DNA of 41,213 nt, from contig DWWE01000008.1 of assembly GCA_019119835.1 (NCBI GenBank), positions 1 to 41,213 on the forward strand. Direction: 5' to 3'. Under the pieces are notes generated by a model. That model saw nothing but the letters and a program-made list of their open reading frames with translations, did not search any database and had not been told where the DNA came from. This DNA is from Candidatus Gemmiger stercoravium. Its GTDB lineage: Bacteria; Bacillota; Clostridia; Oscillospirales; Ruminococcaceae. Of the stretch, positions 11,145 through 20,356 are shown in pieces. A program made the position numbers and the translations under genes. Position 1 is the stretch's first letter; each line of letters begins with the position of its first letter.

Positions 11145-11164
11145 GGCGCGGAGGGGGTGTGTGT

Positions 11165-12304
11165 ATGGACCATCTGCGCCGTGCGGGGCGCCGGCTGGGC
11201 TGCGCCTTGCTGGCCGGTGTGCTGACCGCCGCCGCGGCGGCCGGCGCCGCGACCGTACAGCCCGCCGGCTGGGTGCTGCGGGCCGCCGCGCTGCTCTTCG
11301 CCCCGGCGGCGGTGGAAGCGGTGGGGGTGCTGCCGTCGGAACCCGATCCCCCGGCCCTGGCCGCCGCGGCCGCCGTGCCGCCTGCCCCGTCGCCCTCGCC
11401 CGCCCCGCCGACCCCGGCCCCGGCCCCGCAGCCGACCCCGGCTCCTTCGCCCGGCGCCGAACCCACCCCCGCGCCGCTGACCACCGCCTCGCCGGACCTG
11501 GAAGACGCAGGGCCCATTGAAGCCCGCCACTACGGCCAGGGCAGCGGGGAAGGGTATGTGACCCTCGCCGCCGGCAGCATCAAGAATTCCACCGATCACT
11601 CCGACGATGCGCTGGCCCGGGCCGCCCGGGGGGAGCTGCCCTTCACCGTCCAGCTGGACAGCCCGGACCCCCAGGTGCTGATCCTGCACACCCATGCCAC
11701 CGAGACCTACCAGATCTGGGAGGAACCTGTCTATGACCCGGACTTTGCCGCCCGCACCGCCGACACCAGCCTGAATATGTGCGCCGTGGGGGCGCGGATG
11801 GCGCAGGTGCTCAACGAGGCCGGCGTCAACACGCTGCACGACACCACCCTCCACGACTCGCCCAGCTACACCGAGAGTTACGGCCGCAGCGCCGACACGG
11901 CCCGGGCCTACCTGGAACGATACCCCAGCATCAAGGTGATCCTGGACGTACACCGGGACGCGCTGGAGGCCGACGGCACCCGGATCAAGCCGGTCTGCGA
12001 GCTGGAGGGAAAGACGGCGGCCCAGGTCATGATCATCGCCGGGTGCGACAACGGCGGCACCGTCAGCCTGCCCCACTGGCAGGACAACCTGAAATTCGCC
12101 GCCGCCTGGGAGACCGCCATGGAGACCGCCTACCCGGGCCTGACCCGGCCGGTGCTCTGCGGCTACCGGTTCTATAACCAGGATGTCACCACCGGCAGCC
12201 TGCTGCTGGAGGTGGGCGGCCACGCCAACACGCTGGAGGAGGCGGTCCGCGCCGGCGAGTACGCCGCCCGCGCCCTGGCCGGGCTGTTCGGGGCGGAAAT
12301 TTAG
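11165..12304 (+). CDS. spoIIP: Stage II sporulation protein P, engulfment peptidoglycan hydrolase
   Basis: A 379-residue protein. SpoIIP is the amidase/endopeptidase that, with SpoIID and SpoIIM, thins septal peptidoglycan during engulfment. After a membrane anchor (about 10-50) comes a Pro/Ala/Ser-rich linker (about 60-110), then the catalytic domain with ILHTHATETY (H175, H177), DVHRDAL and EVGGHANTLEEA, which carry zinc-ligand and catalytic residues of the family. The ATG at 11165 is preferred over a GTG two codons earlier because the GAGGGG site is 8 bp from it. A sigma-E-like -10 lies just upstream. The linker is unusually long and repetitive but not out of range for GC-rich species. Confidence 0.93.
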   Translation: MDHLRRAGRRLGCALLAGVLTAAAAAGAATVQPAGWVLRAAALLFAPAAVEAVGVLPSEPDPPALAAAAAVPPAPSPSPAPPTPAPAPQPTPAPSPGAEPTPAPLTTASPDLEDAGPIEARHYGQGSGEGYVTLAAGSIKNSTDHSDDALARAARGELPFTVQLDSPDPQVLILHTHATETYQIWEEPVYDPDFAARTADTSLNMCAVGARMAQVLNEAGVNTLHDTTLHDSPSYTESYGRSADTARAYLERYPSIKVILDVHRDALEADGTRIKPVCELEGKTAAQVMIIAGCDNGGTVSLPHWQDNLKFAAAWETAMETAYPGLTRPVLCGYRFYNQDVTTGSLLLEVGGHANTLEEAVRAGEYAARALAGLFGAEI

Positions 12305-13820: not shown

Positions 13821-14866
13821 TGGGCGCCGTCGCCCAAGCGCTGCTGCCCTGGTTTGAAAAGAATCGAAGGCTTCTGCCGTTCCGGCAGGAGCCTTCGGCT
13901 TACCATATCTGGGTCAGCGAGATCATGCTCCAGCAGACCCGGGTGGCGGCGGCGCTGCCCTACTACGAGCGGTTCGTGGCCGAGCTGCCCGACCCCGCCG
14001 CCCTGGCCGCCTGCCCGCCCGACCGGCTGCGCAAGCTCTGGCAGGGGCTGGGGTACTACAGCCGGGCGGCCAATATGCAAAAAGCCGCCCGCATCGTCTG
14101 CGAACAATACGGCGGCGTTCTGCCCGCCAGCAGGGAAGCGCTGCGGGCGCTGCCCGGCATCGGGGACTACACGGCCGGGGCCATCGCCAGCATCGCCTTC
14201 GGCATTCCGGCCCCGGCGGTGGACGGCAACGTGCTGCGGGTCTTTGCCCGCCTGTTTGACGACGACGCCGACATCACCCGCCCGGCCGTCCGGCGGCTGT
14301 TTACCCGGCGGGTCATGGAGCAGATGCCCCCCGACGCCCCCGGCCCTTACAATGAAGCGCTGATGGAACTGGGGGCGCTGGTCTGCCTGCCCGCCGCGCC
14401 CCGCTGCGACGCCTGCCCGCTGGCGGCGCTGTGCCGCGGCCGGGCTTCGGGCCGGGCGGCCGCGCTGCCCTGCAAGCCGCCCAAAAAGGAGAAGACCCGC
14501 CTGCCGGTGACGGTGGCGCTGGTGGAAAGCCCGGCCGGCCTTTTGCTGCAGCGGCGGCCGGCGGGCGGGCTGCTGGCCAACCTCTGGCAGCCCCCGGCCT
14601 TTGAGGGCCGCACGCTGACCCGGGACCAGCTGGACGGCGAACTGGCCCGGCTGGGGATCCGGGTGGACTGGGAAGCAGCCCTGCCCGCGGCGCGGCATGT
14701 CTTCACCCACCGCATCTGGGAACTGGGCGGCTGGCGGGGCCGGGCGGCCGCGGCGGCTGCGCTGCCCGACGGCTACGCCTGGGCGCGGGGCGAGGAACTG
14801 GCCGAGCAGTACCCGGTCCCCAGCGCCTTCGACGCCTATCTGCCCCAGGCCGGGCACCGGGAATAG
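13820..14866 (+). CDS. mutY: A/G-specific adenine DNA glycosylase
   Basis: A 348-residue base-excision repair enzyme that removes adenine mispaired with 8-oxoguanine. The N-terminal domain has HIWVSEIMLQQTRV (with the catalytic Glu), the helix-hairpin-helix LPGIGDYTAGAIASIAFG and the catalytic Asp in PAVDGNVLRV. The iron-sulfur loop C-X6-C-X2-C-X5-C is intact. The C-terminal Nudix-like domain, which recognises 8-oxoG, occupies about 225-345. It overlaps asnS by 1 bp. A weak stem with a T-run (about 14876-14901) follows and may end transcription. Confidence 0.94.
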   Translation: MGAVAQALLPWFEKNRRLLPFRQEPSAYHIWVSEIMLQQTRVAAALPYYERFVAELPDPAALAACPPDRLRKLWQGLGYYSRAANMQKAARIVCEQYGGVLPASREALRALPGIGDYTAGAIASIAFGIPAPAVDGNVLRVFARLFDDDADITRPAVRRLFTRRVMEQMPPDAPGPYNEALMELGALVCLPAAPRCDACPLAALCRGRASGRAAALPCKPPKKEKTRLPVTVALVESPAGLLLQRRPAGGLLANLWQPPAFEGRTLTRDQLDGELARLGIRVDWEAALPAARHVFTHRIWELGGWRGRAAAAAALPDGYAWARGEELAEQYPVPSAFDAYLPQAGHRE

Positions 14867-14911
14867 GGCGGCGGGGGAGACGTTTCTCTCCAAATTTTTA
14901 CTTTCCTGTTG

Positions 14912-14940
14912 TTGTATTCCTTTGGCAGGTCGGTTATAAT
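14912..14940 (+). promoter_or_regulatory. Promoter of the small membrane protein gene
   Basis: TTGTAT (14912-14917), 17-bp spacer, TATAAT (14935-14940). The start codon is about 80 bp downstream. Confidence 0.5.
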
Positions 14941-15023
14941 AGAACAAACCGAAGGCGCAGCCGTCCCGCTGCGTCCATCAAACTGCAGGCTGCGCTGCGG
15001 CCTGCCGCTGGGAGGAAACACCT

Positions 15024-15263
15024 ATGATGAAGAAATCCACTTTTGGCATCGCTCTGGCTTTCATCGCAGCTGCGGCTGGCGTGCTGACCGCTGTGGCCCT
15101 CTACCTGCGCCGCCGCGAAAAGGAACTGGACGAGTACGAGAGCCTGCTGTATGCGGATTCTGACTTTGATGAGGACGATGACGAGACCACCTACGCGCCG
15201 ATCTCCCCCGAAGCCCCCGCCGGCGACGCCGACGGTGTGCAGGATGACGCCGCGCAGTCCTGA
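15024..15263 (+). CDS. Small membrane-anchored acidic protein, unknown
   Basis: A 79-residue protein. Residues 5-27 form one hydrophobic segment after a basic start (MMKKS), followed by RRREKEL and then a strongly acidic, probably disordered tail rich in Asp, Glu, Ala and Pro. The basic patch after the helix suggests that the tail is cytoplasmic. A GGGAGG site lies 9 bp before the ATG. It has its own promoter and a strong terminator, so it is a monocistron. I recognise no family. Confidence 0.7.
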   Translation: MMKKSTFGIALAFIAAAAGVLTAVALYLRRREKELDEYESLLYADSDFDEDDDETTYAPISPEAPAGDADGVQDDAAQS

Positions 15264-15291
15264 GTTTGCATAGTCCCCGGCAGACGGGCAA

Positions 15292-15349
15292 AAAAGCCAG
15301 GCGCGGCCCGGCGGAGGGCACAAGCCCCGCGGGCCGTGCCCGGCTTTTG
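15292..15349 (+). terminator. Terminator after the small membrane protein gene
   Basis: An 18-nt stem (15292-15309 with 15331-15348, one mismatch and one G-U), preceded by an A-run and ending in TTTT. Confidence 0.8.
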
Positions 15350-15402
15350 CTTTCACCGCCGGGCGGCCCCGGCGACAGATGATTTCAAAAGGAGGGTGAA
15401 CG

Positions 15403-16650
15403 ATGAAACGACTGCTCCTGTGGGTGGTGATGGTCGTGCTGATGGTGGCGGTGCTGCTGGGCGGCGCCGGCGCCGCGCTGTACGCCATGACCGGGGAGAA
15501 CAAACTCCCGTCCGAGCACCCCACTTTCGGCGGCACGGCGCTGGAACCCAACGGGTTCGAGTGGACGGTGCCGGTGCTGGGCGAATACCTGGAACGCCAT
15601 TTCAACGAACCCACCAACCTGACCGTGCAGCAGCTGGGGGATATGGGGGATGTCCGCCCCGAACTGGTCCTGCCCGAATGGGCCGGCCGCAGCGAACTCA
15701 CCCTCACCGCGCCGGACGGCACCGTCGCCCTCACCGGGGACGCCGCCGGCTATACCGATTTCGTCTTTTCACAAAACGGTGAATATGACCTGCAGCTCAC
15801 CCTCTACCGGGACCACTCGGCCGAAGCGCCGGGGCTTTCCAGCGGGTGGTATGCCTACCATGCGGGCTTTACCGTCAATATGCAGCCCAAGGCGGTGCTC
15901 AGCACCGACAGCGCGCCCCAGGGCACCATCGTGGCCGTCTGGGTCACCGGCATCCTGGACGGCAGCACCCCGACGCTGGACACCGACCTGGGCACGGTCT
16001 GGTTCCGCCCGACCCAGACCGGCTACATGGGGTACATTCCGGTCACCTACAACGCCGAGGGCGGCGAACATATCATGACGCTGACCTGCGGGGAGCTGGT
16101 GCAGGAACTGACCCTCTCGGTCACCGAGATGAGCGCCACCACGGTGCAGACCGAATCGGAGCCGGAAATCGCCGGCGCCGGGGAGGAATACCGGAACGCG
16201 ATCTGGCCGCTGTACACATCCAGCGAGTCGGGCAAACTCTGGCAGGGGGCGTTCGCAGCGCCCAGCAACAGCGCCGTCACCGTGCCCTACGGCGCCCGCC
16301 TGATGGCGGACGGCAGCTCGGCCGGGCGGTCCACCGGGCTGACCTACGGCAATGCCGAGATGGGCAGCCAGGTCAGCGCCACCCAGAACGGCACGGTGGT
16401 GTACGCCGGCACGCTGGCCTTGTCCGGCGGCACGGTGGTCATCGACCACGGCTGCGGGGTCAAGAGCTACCTGTTCGGCATGGGGGAGGTGCTGGTCCAG
16501 AAGGGCCAGTCGGTCACCAAGGGCGACCAGGTCGGCACCGCCACCGACGCGCACGACCTGATCTTTGAGCTGCGCATCGGCAGCAAGTCGGTGGACCCGG
16601 CCCCCGCCATCAAGGGGGCCAGCGGGCTGCAGTTTCAGGAAAACCGTTGA
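15403..16650 (+). CDS. Membrane-anchored protein with a degenerate LytM/M23 domain, paralogue 1
   Basis: A 415-residue protein. Residues 4-29 form a signal anchor; the rest should face outward (or the intermembrane space in a sporangium). Three regions follow: an N-terminal domain ending near FVFSQNGEY, a beta-rich Ig-like domain with GILDGSTPTLDTDL, and a C-terminal LytM-like barrel with TVVYAG and IDHGCGVKS. Every zinc or catalytic residue of the metalloprotease is replaced: the HxxxD site reads STGLT, and the HxH site reads DLI in HDLIFEL. It is therefore probably a structural or scaffold protein, as SpoIIQ is in Bacillus. The next gene encodes a longer paralogue 55 bp on. The SpoIIQ comparison is inference. 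Confidence 0.78.
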   Translation: MKRLLLWVVMVVLMVAVLLGGAGAALYAMTGENKLPSEHPTFGGTALEPNGFEWTVPVLGEYLERHFNEPTNLTVQQLGDMGDVRPELVLPEWAGRSELTLTAPDGTVALTGDAAGYTDFVFSQNGEYDLQLTLYRDHSAEAPGLSSGWYAYHAGFTVNMQPKAVLSTDSAPQGTIVAVWVTGILDGSTPTLDTDLGTVWFRPTQTGYMGYIPVTYNAEGGEHIMTLTCGELVQELTLSVTEMSATTVQTESEPEIAGAGEEYRNAIWPLYTSSESGKLWQGAFAAPSNSAVTVPYGARLMADGSSAGRSTGLTYGNAEMGSQVSATQNGTVVYAGTLALSGGTVVIDHGCGVKSYLFGMGEVLVQKGQSVTKGDQVGTATDAHDLIFELRIGSKSVDPAPAIKGASGLQFQENR

Positions 16651-16705
16651 TTTGTTCGGCAAGACCGTTGACATAGAGGATAACTCCCAGGGGTGAAGAT
16701 TGGGT

Positions 16706-18811
16706 ATGGAGGAGAAGAAGGATCAGGAGCGGGTCATCCCGCAGTCCCCGCAGCCGGAGGCATCGGCCCCGGCGCCGCAGCAAGGACAGGAGGGCGGCCG
16801 GCCTTCCGGCGGCCCCGGCAAGAACAGTCGTCGCCGTCGCCGCCGCCGCAAGGCGAAATCCGGCGCCGGGCAGGGGCCGTCCGCGGCGCCCGGTCGGGAA
16901 AAGACCGAGGGGGCGCAGCAGACGGCGCCGGCGGAAAAGCCCGCCGGCAAGCGGGTGCGCCCGGTCCGCCCGGCGGACGGGGAGAAAATGCGGCCTCCCG
17001 AGGCGGCAGAACCGGACCGCCCGGCGCCGCCGGAATCCCCGGCAGAACCGGAAAAAACCGAACAAACGCCGGCCGGGGCGGCAGAACCGACCGGGCGGCC
17101 GGAACCGGCGCCCGGTGAGGAGACTGCACCGGCGGCGGAAGGGCCGAAGGCGGCCCCCGACATGCCGGACCCGCCTGAGCCGGCCGAAGCGACGCCCCCG
17201 GCGCCGCCGCAGACCCCGGAGCAGACGGAGAAACCGGAGGACGCGCCGACCGGGACGGAAGAAACCACCGGGCAGCCGGAAAACGCACCCGAGGAGAAAC
17301 CCGACCCGGCGGAGCCCGAGCCGGAGGAACCGGCCGGGACGCCCGAACCGGAGGAGGAGCCGGAGCCGGAGGAGGAGCCCGAGGAGACGCCCGAACAGCT
17401 GCGCCGCACGGCGGAGCTGACCCGCACGGTGCAGCTTTCCATCGAAAAGCTCACCGATGTGCCCGACCCGATGGAAGCGGTCGAGCCGGCCGCGGCGCCG
17501 ACCCTGGCCGACCGTATGCGGGAAGGGCTGTGGCGGATGCTCAGGTGGCTGCTGCTGGTGGCCGCCTTCGTGGCGCTGGTGGCCGGCGTCGGCATCGCCT
17601 GGCTGTACAGCGGCGCTTCGGACGAAGCCATCCCCGAGGTGTCGGCTTCCTTCAACGGCCAGACGCTGGAGACGGCCTCCTCCAGCTGGCATGTGCCGGT
17701 GGTGGCGAACTTCTTCAAGCGCACCTATTCCGAAAAGAACTTCACCGAGCCCGAACAGCTCGACGATCTGGAGACCACCAGGGCGGTGCTGCGGGTCCAG
17801 GCGGACGGCTGCGATACCGAGCTGGAGATCACCGACGAGGCGGACCAGACCGTCTTTGAGGGCACGGCCGAGGAGTTTGAATCCTTCCGCTTCTCTCAAA
17901 ACGGCAGCTACACCGGCCGGCTGCGGGTCTACCGGGACAACGACTCCCTGGACCACGAGGCGGGGGTCAGCGGCCAGCAGATCTACCTGTTCACCTTCCA
18001 GGTCCGGCTCAAGCCCGGCATCCGTCTCAACACCACGACGGTGCAGCAGGGCGGCGTGGCGGCCCTGCGGGTGAGCGGCATCCTGGACACCGAAACCCCC
18101 ACCCTGGACACCGACCTGACCAACACCGGCTTCTATGAAGGGGAGAGCGGCTGGATCGTCTACCTGCCGATCGAGTATGACCGGGAGCCCGGCGACTACA
18201 CCCTGACCGTCACGGCCGGCGGCTATACCGAGGAGCTGACCCTCACGGTCAGCCAGCGCACCGAGCAGGCCCGGGATGTGTCCAGCCGCAGCCGGCTCAC
18301 CTCGCCCTATCTGGGGCTGGAAGACACCCCCGCCGAGGTGCAGGCCCTGCTGAACACCGGCGCCGCGGAGGCCGCCTGGGCGGAGGAGGGCTTTGTGCAG
18401 CCCTTCACCGATTCCATCGAGATCTCGCTGGCCTACGGCACCACCGAGTATGTGGGCCGCACCCGCACCCAGCGGCAGGCCGGCACCGGCAGCGGGCGCA
18501 CCAGCACCAACATCGTGGTCACCGGCCGGCGGGGCGGGCAGCTGATCGCCCCGGCCGACGGGCAGGTGCTGCTGGCGGAAGATCTGGGCGGCACGGCGGA
18601 CAACACCATCGTGATCGACCATGGCGCCGGCGTCAAGAGCATCTTCTACAACCTGCGCGAACTGTCGGTGCAGGAGGGTGAAACGGTGATCCGCGGCCAG
18701 CAGATCGCCACCACCAACCAGGCCACCATCGGCGAGGTGCGCATCGTCGATGTGCCGGTGGAACCGCTGAGCATCTGGCGCGGCCAGTGCGACGCGCTGC
18801 GCTACTACTGA
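16706..18811 (+). CDS. Type II membrane protein with long disordered tail and degenerate LytM domain, paralogue 2
   Basis: A 701-residue protein. Residues 1-270 form a low-complexity tail rich in Pro, Glu and Ala, with a basic patch of seven Arg plus Lys at 42-49; a membrane helix at about 278-300 follows. The outer part repeats the three-domain plan of the gene before it: FRFSQNGSY, GILDTETPTLDTDL and IDHGAGVKS align with the same motifs there. The LytM barrel again lacks the metal-binding histidines. The ATG at 16706 is chosen over a TTG two codons upstream because of GGTGA 9 bp away. The extra cytoplasmic tail is absent from paralogue 1, so the two may have divided roles. A strong terminator follows. 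Confidence 0.78.
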   Translation: MEEKKDQERVIPQSPQPEASAPAPQQGQEGGRPSGGPGKNSRRRRRRRKAKSGAGQGPSAAPGREKTEGAQQTAPAEKPAGKRVRPVRPADGEKMRPPEAAEPDRPAPPESPAEPEKTEQTPAGAAEPTGRPEPAPGEETAPAAEGPKAAPDMPDPPEPAEATPPAPPQTPEQTEKPEDAPTGTEETTGQPENAPEEKPDPAEPEPEEPAGTPEPEEEPEPEEEPEETPEQLRRTAELTRTVQLSIEKLTDVPDPMEAVEPAAAPTLADRMREGLWRMLRWLLLVAAFVALVAGVGIAWLYSGASDEAIPEVSASFNGQTLETASSSWHVPVVANFFKRTYSEKNFTEPEQLDDLETTRAVLRVQADGCDTELEITDEADQTVFEGTAEEFESFRFSQNGSYTGRLRVYRDNDSLDHEAGVSGQQIYLFTFQVRLKPGIRLNTTTVQQGGVAALRVSGILDTETPTLDTDLTNTGFYEGESGWIVYLPIEYDREPGDYTLTVTAGGYTEELTLTVSQRTEQARDVSSRSRLTSPYLGLEDTPAEVQALLNTGAAEAAWAEEGFVQPFTDSIEISLAYGTTEYVGRTRTQRQAGTGSGRTSTNIVVTGRRGGQLIAPADGQVLLAEDLGGTADNTIVIDHGAGVKSIFYNLRELSVQEGETVIRGQQIATTNQATIGEVRIVDVPVEPLSIWRGQCDALRYY

Positions 18812-18840
18812 TCCGCCGCAGCGTTGCCCATATAAACTTG

Positions 18841-18875
18841 AAAGAGGCATCCCGCCATCGGGGTGCCTCTTTTGG
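18841..18875 (+). terminator. Terminator after the LytM-like pair
   Basis: A 14-bp stem (18841-18854 with 18859-18872, one G-U), loop CCAT, with the T-run partly inside the stem (CTCTTTT). Confidence 0.85.
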
Positions 18876-18959
18876 TTTGCGGACGCCGATTCCGTGCCGA
18901 TCGTGTGTCAGCCGCCGCGTTTCCGGCATAGGATGCCACAGAGAAAAGGGGTGTGGATC

Positions 18960-19763
18960 ATGTCCGAATGGTTGTGTGTAGTGGGGCAGGACGCCCGCCA
19001 GCAGGCGGCGGCCCGGGCGCTGCGGCAGGCCGGCCTCGCCGTGGCGGGCCCCGAACAGGCCGGGCAGGCGCCGGTCATCCTGCTGCCGATGGGGGCAGCA
19101 GGCGATCGGGCGGAGGTCTGCCGGGCGGCGGTGCAGGCGGCCGCCCCCGGGGCGCTGGTGCTGGCCGGCCGGCCCGACGCCGCGCTGCGCCGGCTGGCGG
19201 AGCAGCGGGGGCTGGAACTGATCGACTACTATGCCCGCCCGGAGCTCGTCCGCCTCAACGCGGTGCCCACGGCCGAAGGCTGTCTGGCGCTGCTGCTGCA
19301 GATGCGGGACAGCACGATCTGGCAAAGCCGGTTCCTGGTGCTGGGGTACGGCCGGGTGGGGCAGGCGGTGGCCGAGCGGCTGCGGGCGCTGGGCGGGCTG
19401 GTGACGGTGGCGGCCCGCAGCGCCGAACAGCGGGCCGCCGCCCGCTGCGCCAACTGCCGGGCCGCGCCGCTCACCGCCCTGCCGCGGCTGCTGCCCCGGG
19501 CGGACGCCGTGGTCAACACGATCCCTGCGCCGGTGCTGCCGGCCGGGCAGCTGGCCCGGCTGCGGCCGGGCACGGCGGTGGTGGACCTGGCCAGCGCCCC
19601 CGGCGGCACCGACTTTGCCGCCGCCGAACGGCTGGGGGTGCGGGCCTGCCTGGCGCCCGGGCTGCCGGGGCGGTGCGCCCCGGTCACGGCCGGCCGGCTG
19701 ATCGCCCGGACCGTGCTCAACCTTTTGAACGAACGGCGCACCGCGCCGGACACAGAGGAGTGA
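18960..19763 (+). CDS. dpsA: Dipicolinate synthase subunit A
   Basis: A 267-residue NAD(P)-binding protein homologous to SpoVFA. It forms, with subunit B, the mother-cell enzyme that oxidises dihydrodipicolinate to dipicolinic acid for the spore core. The Rossmann loop is FLVLGYGRVGQAVAERL in the middle; the C-terminal half has VVNTIPAPVLP and VVDLASAPGGTDF, both characteristic. The N-terminal third is more variable. The ATG at 18960 has AAGGGGTG about 8 bp upstream; an earlier in-frame ATG has none. Subunit B follows 5 bp after the stop. A palindrome GGCATAGGATGCC lies upstream; it resembles a sigma-K -10 only loosely. Confidence 0.92.
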   Translation: MSEWLCVVGQDARQQAAARALRQAGLAVAGPEQAGQAPVILLPMGAAGDRAEVCRAAVQAAAPGALVLAGRPDAALRRLAEQRGLELIDYYARPELVRLNAVPTAEGCLALLLQMRDSTIWQSRFLVLGYGRVGQAVAERLRALGGLVTVAARSAEQRAAARCANCRAAPLTALPRLLPRADAVVNTIPAPVLPAGQLARLRPGTAVVDLASAPGGTDFAAAERLGVRACLAPGLPGRCAPVTAGRLIARTVLNLLNERRTAPDTEE

Positions 19764-19768
19764 GGAAG

Positions 19769-20356
19769 ATGGAACGTTGGACGCCGACGCCCCGGACCGT
19801 TGTGTTTGCCCTGTGCGGCAGTTTCTGCAGCTTCGGGGCGGTGCTGCCCCAGGTGGAACAGCTGCAGCAGCGCGGCTGGAACGTGCTGCCCCTGCTCAGC
19901 GCCAGCGCCGCCGCACTGGACACCCGCTTCGGTACCGCGGCCGACCTGAAGGCCACGCTGCGGGCCATGACCGGGCACGAGCCGCTGACCACCCTGCAGC
20001 AAGCCGAACCCCTCGGCCCCCAAAAACTGGCCGAAGCCCTGGTCATCGCCCCCTGCACCGGCACCACCCTGTCGCTGCTGGCCCAGGGCGTCAGCAGCAC
20101 CGCCGTCACCCTGGCGGCCAAAAGCCTGCTGCGGGGCGGCCGGCCGGTGGTCGTCGCCCCCTCCACCAACGACGGGCTGTCGGGCAGCGCCCCGAGCCTG
20201 GCGGCGCTGCTGCAGCGCAAGCATTTCTATTTTGTCCCCTTCGGGCAGGACGACAGCTTCAAAAAGCCCAACAGCCTGAAAAGCGACTTCACCCTGCTGC
20301 CGGACACGCTGGAAAGCGCACTGCGGGGCGTGCAGCTGCAGCCGCTGCTGTTGTAA
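19769..20356 (+). CDS. dpsB: Dipicolinate synthase subunit B, flavoprotein family
   Basis: A 195-residue member of the HFCD flavoprotein family, homologous to SpoVFB. Characteristic segments are FALCGSFCSFGAVLPQ near the N-terminus, LVIAPCTGTTLSLLA in the middle, and VVVAPSTNDGLSGSAPSL, with FVPFGQDD near the end. It pairs with DpsA, 5 bp upstream, and GAGGAAG serves as its ribosome-binding site. With the spoVA operon at 7998-9832 the window thus encodes both synthesis and uptake of dipicolinate. Confidence 0.92.
   Translation: MERWTPTPRTVVFALCGSFCSFGAVLPQVEQLQQRGWNVLPLLSASAAALDTRFGTAADLKATLRAMTGHEPLTTLQQAEPLGPQKLAEALVIAPCTGTTLSLLAQGVSSTAVTLAAKSLLRGGRPVVVAPSTNDGLSGSAPSLAALLQRKHFYFVPFGQDDSFKKPNSLKSDFTLLPDTLESALRGVQLQPLLL

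Follow-up and report, generated by a model that had tools for sequence, protein, structure and literature searches.

What do two neighbouring membrane proteins do with a peptidase fold whose active site is gone? The question is raised by a locus of Candidatus Gemmiger stercoravium (Bacillota; Ruminococcaceae), in which two genes, here called A and B, lie in tandem on the forward strand of contig DWWE01000008.1 (assembly GCA_019119835.1), and encode paralogs whose outer parts end in a degenerate LytM domain. The window referred to below is the whole analysed stretch of 41,213 nucleotides. A preliminary description of the same DNA compared the two proteins with SpoIIQ of Bacillus, and hence with a sporulation channel. 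The analysis reported here points in another direction, and we incline to the view that A and B are vegetative, membrane-anchored pseudo-peptidases that bind or steer wall hydrolases, with B linking the wall to a cytoplasmic partner.

Two paralogs with a LytM barrel and no catalytic residues

The genes and the parts of their products are as follows.

15403..16650, forward strand: gene A, 415 residues, with a membrane helix, a first beta domain, an immunoglobulin (Ig)-like middle domain, a linker helix and a dead LytM barrel
15406..15489, forward strand: putative membrane helix of A, residues 2–29 (helix by DSSP on the model, membrane assignment from sequence)
15520..15876, forward strand: first beta domain of A, residues 40–158 (model; boundaries by eye)
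15877..16125, forward strand: Ig-like middle domain of A, residues 159–241 (model), which occupies the place of the N-terminal domain of Pgp3
16273..16602, forward strand: degenerate LytM barrel of A, residues 291–400 (Pfam, alignment and structure match)
16706..18811, forward strand: gene B, 701 residues, with a long cytoplasmic tail, a membrane helix and then three outer domains as in A
16706..17509, forward strand: predicted cytoplasmic tail of B, rich in Pro, Glu and Ala and variable in length among relatives
18410..18772, forward strand: degenerate LytM barrel of B (Pfam, alignment and model; boundaries by eye)

The open reading frames, the Pfam matches and the match of A to B agree on a tandem pair of paralogous membrane proteins at these positions, as first described. 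Residues 3–405 of A match B (E value 2.8e-52, 32% identity), both proteins exceed the curated cut-off of Pfam Peptidase_M23 (1e-16 for A and 1.5e-12 for B), and the motifs GILDxxTPTLDTDL, F(V/R)FSQNG and IDHGxGVKS, reported as shared, were all found in both translations; the HGxG portion of the last is not specific to the pair, being present also in M23 relatives with an intact site. B has two candidate start codons, TTG at 16700 and ATG at 16706, the latter being the more likely, and of the two proteins B alone carries the large cytoplasmic tail, as had been noted. An Rfam scan of the window gave no match.

Structure prediction of each protein gives a LytM barrel, and the fold without a LytM barrel that the preliminary description had named as a refutation was not seen. 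The AlphaFold2 model of A has a predicted local distance difference test (pLDDT) score of 93.8 and a predicted template modelling (pTM) score of 0.78 (55 homologous rows), and the model of the outer part of B has scores of 89.6 and 0.74 (37 homologous rows). Both proteins have a single membrane helix followed by a LytM domain, as does SpoIIQ, and both models contain the Pgp3-type combination of an Ig-like domain, a linker helix and a LytM domain. The linker helix of A comprises residues 259–272; apart from it and the membrane helix, the models of A and B contain short helices only.

In M23 peptidases the catalytic and zinc-binding roles fall to five canonical positions, namely the H and D of HxxxD, the H of YxHL and both H of HxH. 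Aligned with an intact relative (L201), which served as the ruler, these positions read S, T, G, D and I in A and S, V, N, A and I in B, so that all five are replaced in both proteins, as had been claimed, and no aligned B row holds an intact set. Among 13 further M23 matches in the window's genome, HxxxD and HxH are kept in 10; C103 aligned only partly, and the two weakest matches lay outside the assessment. That a rearranged site, or one without zinc, still gives A and B peptidase activity is very improbable: although the barrel core, including VIDHGxGxKS, is conserved, as such activity would lead one to expect, none of the five canonical residues remains, and the stretch preceding HxH is shorter in A and B than in intact relatives.

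Distribution of the pair and gradation of the active site

Two collections were compared: a genus set of 35 genomes, and 78 loci that derive from the best 80 of 242 relatives and are named by the titles of their NCBI records. Title and placement sometimes differ; the Gemmiger-titled An120, An194, An87, An50, NC bin37, SI.B54 and AM bin27 group with the Fournierella type, and UBA1819, titled Faecalibacterium, groups with Ruthenibacterium. By title, A is found among the 78 loci in Gemmiger, Fournierella, Faecalibacterium, Anaerofilum, Ruthenibacterium and Pygmaiobacter, and the A of Candidatus Gemmiger stercoripullorum is 84% identical to that of the window. The 42 loci (of 78) in which B adjoins A belong without exception to the Gemmiger clade or to the Fournierella type.

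Within the genus set, B occurs in all 35 genomes and A in 31, the two being adjacent in 30 and on two contigs in G033. This joint occurrence would suit an obligate heterodimer that acts only as a complex, such as Csd1 and Csd2 of Helicobacter pylori can form (PMC5053510, in excerpt). However, B stands without A in four of the 35 genomes (G010, G017, G028 and G031, where A is missing from a locus free of N runs), A stands without B in all nine Faecalibacterium genomes searched (genome-wide search with B, E 1e-10), and no helical dimerisation domain of the Csd1/Csd2 type is present in the models of A or B. The pair is not obligate, as either copy occurs alone, and we regard a strict heterodimer as improbable.

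A quick tree was made from 84 of 132 rows; 47 rows of 29 loci, hand-picked as near duplicates, were dropped, as was the mislabelled L204_A, which is a B. In this tree B forms one clade, with 99 in the Shimodaira–Hasegawa-like approximate likelihood ratio test (SH-aLRT), and the A proteins of Gemmiger, Fournierella and Faecalibacterium form another (SH-aLRT 98); the program warned of long branches and of an outgroup that does not lie on one side of a branch. Because of these two clades, the duplication probably predates Gemmiger, Fournierella and Faecalibacterium, with B having been lost in the last.

Relatives of A grade from intact via partial to dead sites. The full set HDHHH is found in the A orthologs of L191, L195, L197, L198, L201, L202 and L203; partial sites occur in Pygmaiobacter (HDHLH, HDFTH and HDFPH), in Ruthenibacterium and UBA1819 (SDHPH and SGYDH) and in Anaerofilum (NTHLQ), and in some Fournierella-type loci the His of YxHL is the sole canonical residue retained. 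Dead sites are those of the Gemmiger clade and of the other Faecalibacterium rows, and the first His of HxH is gone in every decayed A row. Because intact, half-decayed and dead members coexist, the route from enzyme to putative regulator is traceable, and it can be followed in Gemmiger, Fournierella and Faecalibacterium, common gut bacteria in which the members of this family stand side by side. That the site was lost more than once, independently, in the A lineage was also considered and is unproven, a single origin not being rejected by an approximately unbiased test (p 0.675, 71 versus 13 rows) that excludes the separate decay in G053 and G077, two genomes described below. A search of the open-licence literature found nothing that links Gemmiger with LytM.

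A separate SpoIIQ-like gene

If A or B acted as the SpoIIQ of this bacterium, the genome might be expected to lack another, and this candidate role was rejected when a separate SpoIIQ-like gene was found elsewhere in the window's genome (G000:C97:19924-20214; L108:1987-2733). Its product retains the H, the D and HxH. SpoIIQ is the best match of this protein both in the PDB (4.5e-9; entries 3uz0 and 3tuf) and in NCBIfam (9.3e-16), where the 58 bits fall below the curated cut-off of 250. In 11 SpoIIQ-like proteins from 11 genomes, G053 and G077 included, the H, D, H and H are invariant, and the first PDB match of their profile is SpoIIQ (4.2e-21). The NCBIfam comparison for the pair itself favours Pgp3 over SpoIIQ, with 9e-20 versus 4.5e-5 for A and 1.8e-9 versus 0.0026 for B. 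The SpoIIQ of Clostridioides difficile likewise retains LytM motifs (PMC4982068, in excerpt). The SpoIIQ-like gene lies near a contig end, on a contig other than that of spoIID and beside an argD-like gene (by eye), and has orthologs in other genomes.

Promoter-like boxes and hairpins

The gaps around the pair contain the following features.

14912..14940, forward strand: conserved sigma-A-type box TTGTAT-N17-TATAAT ahead of the small gene
15024..15263, forward strand: gene of a small single-helix membrane protein upstream of A, a neighbour kept in Gemmiger, Fournierella and many Faecalibacterium loci
15288..15352, forward strand: terminator-like hairpin after the small gene and ahead of A (-46.8 kcal/mol, z -4.8; found in part by a strict scan as well)
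18838..18880, forward strand: terminator-like hairpin in the gap between B and dpaA (-25.6 kcal/mol, z -5.0; T-rich tail; not listed by the strict scan)

Only sigma-A-type boxes were scanned for. A box was defined as TATAAT with either a -35 match or TGn and was counted on the 78 named loci, where shuffling gives an expectation of at most 1.7 for any gene. The small gene is preceded by such a box in 50 of 52 loci, and A or a nearby co-directional small gene in 55 of 75; directly upstream of A it is present in 22 of 76 loci, with none there in the window or most near relatives. The regions scanned ahead of sporulation genes have none (spoVAC 0/14, spoVAD 0/3, spoIIP 0/11, dpaA 0/23), the count for spoIIP being limited to 11 loci, with its N-terminus rarely aligned. 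Other genes with a box are asnS (16/36) and ftsZ (6/20); the zero counts of mutY (0/54), dpaB (0/24) and murA (0/22) are little informative, as these genes are probably operon-internal. A hairpin follows B in 18 of 26 loci, the window included. The product of the small gene is acidic and has one helix, and its position upstream of A is kept across the three genera.

The sporulation-channel reading is weakened by these results: the genome has a distinct SpoIIQ-like gene whose motifs are intact, Pgp3 matches A and B better, sigma-A-type boxes stand upstream of the A unit, and a terminator-like hairpin lies ahead of dpaA.

Conservation and selection

The preliminary description had found conservation to be highest in the middle domain and had taken that domain for the functional surface. 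For the A–B pair of the window the observation stands, identity being 41% in the middle domain, 33% in LytM and 31% in the first domain. It does not extend to the 55 rows (30 of A and 25 of B), in which LytM leads the middle domain throughout (66 versus 62% among A, 52 versus 41% among B and 35 versus 31% between A and B) and has 22 near-invariant positions in 110 as against 10 in 83. With LytM as the most conserved outer domain over these rows, the case for the middle domain as the functional surface falls away.

The ratio of nonsynonymous to synonymous substitution rates (dN/dS) of A, measured against two relatives, is 0.16 and 0.23, and that of mutY is 0.18; A is thus under constraint, with a ratio similar to that of mutY. 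For the B tail the value is 0.41 (214 codons), which is unreliable.

The cytoplasmic tail of B

Among relatives, the open frame before the outer part of B ranges from 50 to 357 residues and is of low complexity. Two features of the tail recur.

17420..17446, forward strand: TRTVQLSIE motif of the B tail, conserved in the alignment of tails
16829..16852, forward strand: basic cluster RRRRRRRK of the B tail (by eye), with a similar cluster near the N-terminus in many, though not all, relatives

A pattern of the type [TS]RT[VA]Q occurs in 22 of 26 tails examined, beginning 30–58 residues ahead of the first residue of the outer construct. The tails of L058 and L075 contain variants of it, read by eye, which brings the count within the window's genus to 24 of 24; the motif is missing from the remaining two, L039 and L040, both of the Fournierella type. 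A degenerate DNA pattern of the motif has a single match in the window's genome, and that match is in B. The motif offers a concrete handle for finding the partner of B inside the cell.

Proposed function and the case against it

The fold, the loss of the active sites and its gradation among relatives, the phylogeny of the genes, the additional SpoIIQ-like gene, the motif of the tail and the promoter-like boxes are results of computation; the vegetative timing, the binding to a hydrolase or to peptidoglycan, the topology and the existence of a partner are inferences. A and B would descend from an active Pgp3-like M23 wall peptidase with one membrane helix, an extra beta domain, an Ig-like domain and LytM, and would have lost the cleavage of peptidoglycan. 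Their expression is probably vegetative and driven by sigma-A promoters. Their LytM barrels would most likely dock on peptidoglycan, on a real hydrolase or on both, activating or placing the hydrolase, a mode of action described or supposed for EnvC, NlpD, DipM and Csd2. The conserved TRTVQ segment in the flexible tail of B probably has as its target a cytoplasmic protein of cell division or cell shape, and B may in this way couple the inside of the cell to the wall. A scaffold that steers hydrolases or binds peptidoglycan appears likeliest because catalysis is lost and the barrel kept, because the boxes are of the vegetative type and because the DipM groove provides a precedent. SpoIIP is a candidate partner, by location only.

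One can go further and imagine a vegetative trans-envelope control module of Clostridia, in which a Pgp3-like peptidase lost its catalytic base, decayed stepwise to a scaffold and was duplicated, the disordered TRTVQ tail of B signalling the location of the division or shape machinery to wall hydrolases. As a whole this extended picture is doubtful; if true, it would be a Gram-positive counterpart of EnvC-FtsEX in a single protein. Controllers of wall hydrolases with dead LytM domains are known mostly from Gram-negative bacteria, and Gemmiger divides by a budding-like constriction.

Several observations weigh against a vegetative hydrolase-steering role. The LytM part of A has a dN/dS of 0.25, above the 0.16 of the whole protein (window versus nearest relative), and the outer part of B evolves faster than A (0.53 and 0.69); these raised values are also compatible with relaxed constraint. 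The box criterion was fixed after the upstream sequences had been inspected, the window's box matches the -35 consensus at only 3 of 6 positions, and a terminator-like hairpin separates the small gene from A. The window's box rests on conservation, because a stricter promoter scan of 14850–19000 gave none.

The neighbourhood is also that of sporulation genes, and the placement of the pair between spoIIP and dpaA/dpaB is upheld by profile matches.

11159..12304, forward strand: spoIIP (TIGR02867, 1.6e-50)
18894..19763, forward strand: dpaA (profile match)
19769..20356, forward strand: dpaB (TIGR02852, 2.7e-58; start approximate)

Together with spoVAC and spoVAD, these genes suggest that A and B might belong to the sporulation apparatus, acting beside SpoIIQ at the engulfing membrane, with SpoIIIAH or the SpoIID/SpoIIP machine as their binding partner. 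Among the 25 Gemmiger-clade loci that leave at least 1 kb of sequence after B, 23 have dpaA next, L150 and L204 being the exceptions (L127 was dropped for lack of room). On the other side, spoIIP was located no more than 6 kb upstream of A in 34 of 78 loci, many contigs being cut. Of the 35 genomes in the genus set, 31 have SpoIIIAH and all have DpaB; sporulation genes were found in most carriers tested, so that the occurrence mainly in lineages without them, which the preliminary description had named as a possible refutation, was not seen. Moreover, in two genomes of another family, a dead-LytM relative comes directly after spoIIIAH (G053) or with one gene between (G077); in both the zinc ligands are lost (NNHHF and NNHNY), and genes read as spoIIIAF and spoIIIAG precede. 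Yet these two genomes, like that of the window, have a separate SpoIIQ-like gene, dpaA follows B in none of 14 Fournierella-type loci with room (L156, L159 and L172 dropped), and intact-site relatives occur in G097, G100 and G101, genomes whose completeness is not given and in which SpoIVA and DpaB were not found. With the boxes and the hairpin ahead of dpaA, this makes a sporulation role rather unlikely in our judgement, and we continue to prefer the vegetative one.

The LytM membrane proteins of the G053 and G077 neighbourhoods (L045:7391-9148 and L100:4252-6012) have 585–586 residues, and the separate SpoIIQ-like proteins in both genomes keep their motifs. Another relative with a partly lost LytM site (L046:5921-7564, in G067) is divergent to a germination gene that looks GerA-type by eye. 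In the window, the family matches of DpaA begin only at about residue 76, and the N-terminal part of this protein looks divergent.

Two further ideas that bear on sporulation were rejected. Faecalibacterium is usually called non-spore-forming, and could have served as a genus free of sporulation genes; all nine genomes (G081–G089, of L162, L167, L155, L163, L170, L180, L183, L184 and L187) carry SpoIIIAH, DpaB and SpoIVA. Nor is the loss of A tied to a loss of sporulation genes, as the four genomes without A retain dpaB, SpoIIIAH and SpoIID. No paper that connects Faecalibacterium with SpoIVA and with sporulation genes turned up in the open-licence literature; the retention of a spoIIIA operon in the cluster that contains Faecalibacterium has already been published (PMC7924749, in excerpt).

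Comparison with known systems

The closest likeness of A and B is to Pgp3 of Campylobacter jejuni (PDB 6jmx, 6jmy, 6jn1 and 6jn7), which is both the best structure and the best NCBIfam model for the two proteins. It is the first Foldseek match of each (6jn1, E 2.4e-17 for A and 1.6e-14 for B), and the template modelling (TM) score by target length to 6jmy is 0.81 for A and 0.73 for B, over about 260–270 columns that take in the Ig-like and LytM domains. Pgp3 is a zinc D,D-peptidase of 274 residues in which an N-terminal immunoglobulin-like domain is joined to LytM by a flexible linker that includes a helix (PMC6978369, in excerpt), whereas A and B are without any catalytic residue, carry an extra first beta domain and, in the case of B, also a long cytoplasmic tail. 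SpoIIQ shares with the pair one membrane helix and a LytM domain, but its match (3tuf) is confined to the LytM part, spanning 150–158 columns, and the genome has its own SpoIIQ-like protein.

The preliminary description knew of no described pair of this kind; a pair has in fact been described in H. pylori, where Csd1 and Csd2 are LytM paralogs with consecutive tags (HP1543 and HP1544), one having incomplete metal ligands. There, the other copy, Csd1, binds zinc, and the dimer forms via a helical domain (PMC5053510, in excerpt), whereas A and B are both dead and each is found alone in some genomes.

In function, the proteins most like our proposal are EnvC, NlpD, ActS and DipM, regulators of wall hydrolases that have an extracytoplasmic LytM domain without a catalytic site. 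These are Gram-negative proteins built with other modules (a coiled coil or LysM) and not with the beta domains of A and B. The LytM domains of EnvC, DipM and Csd1/Csd2 also match A and B structurally in Foldseek. For DipM, the LytM groove is a predicted docking site for autolysins, and mutations in the groove abolish function and binding (PMC10336132, in excerpt).

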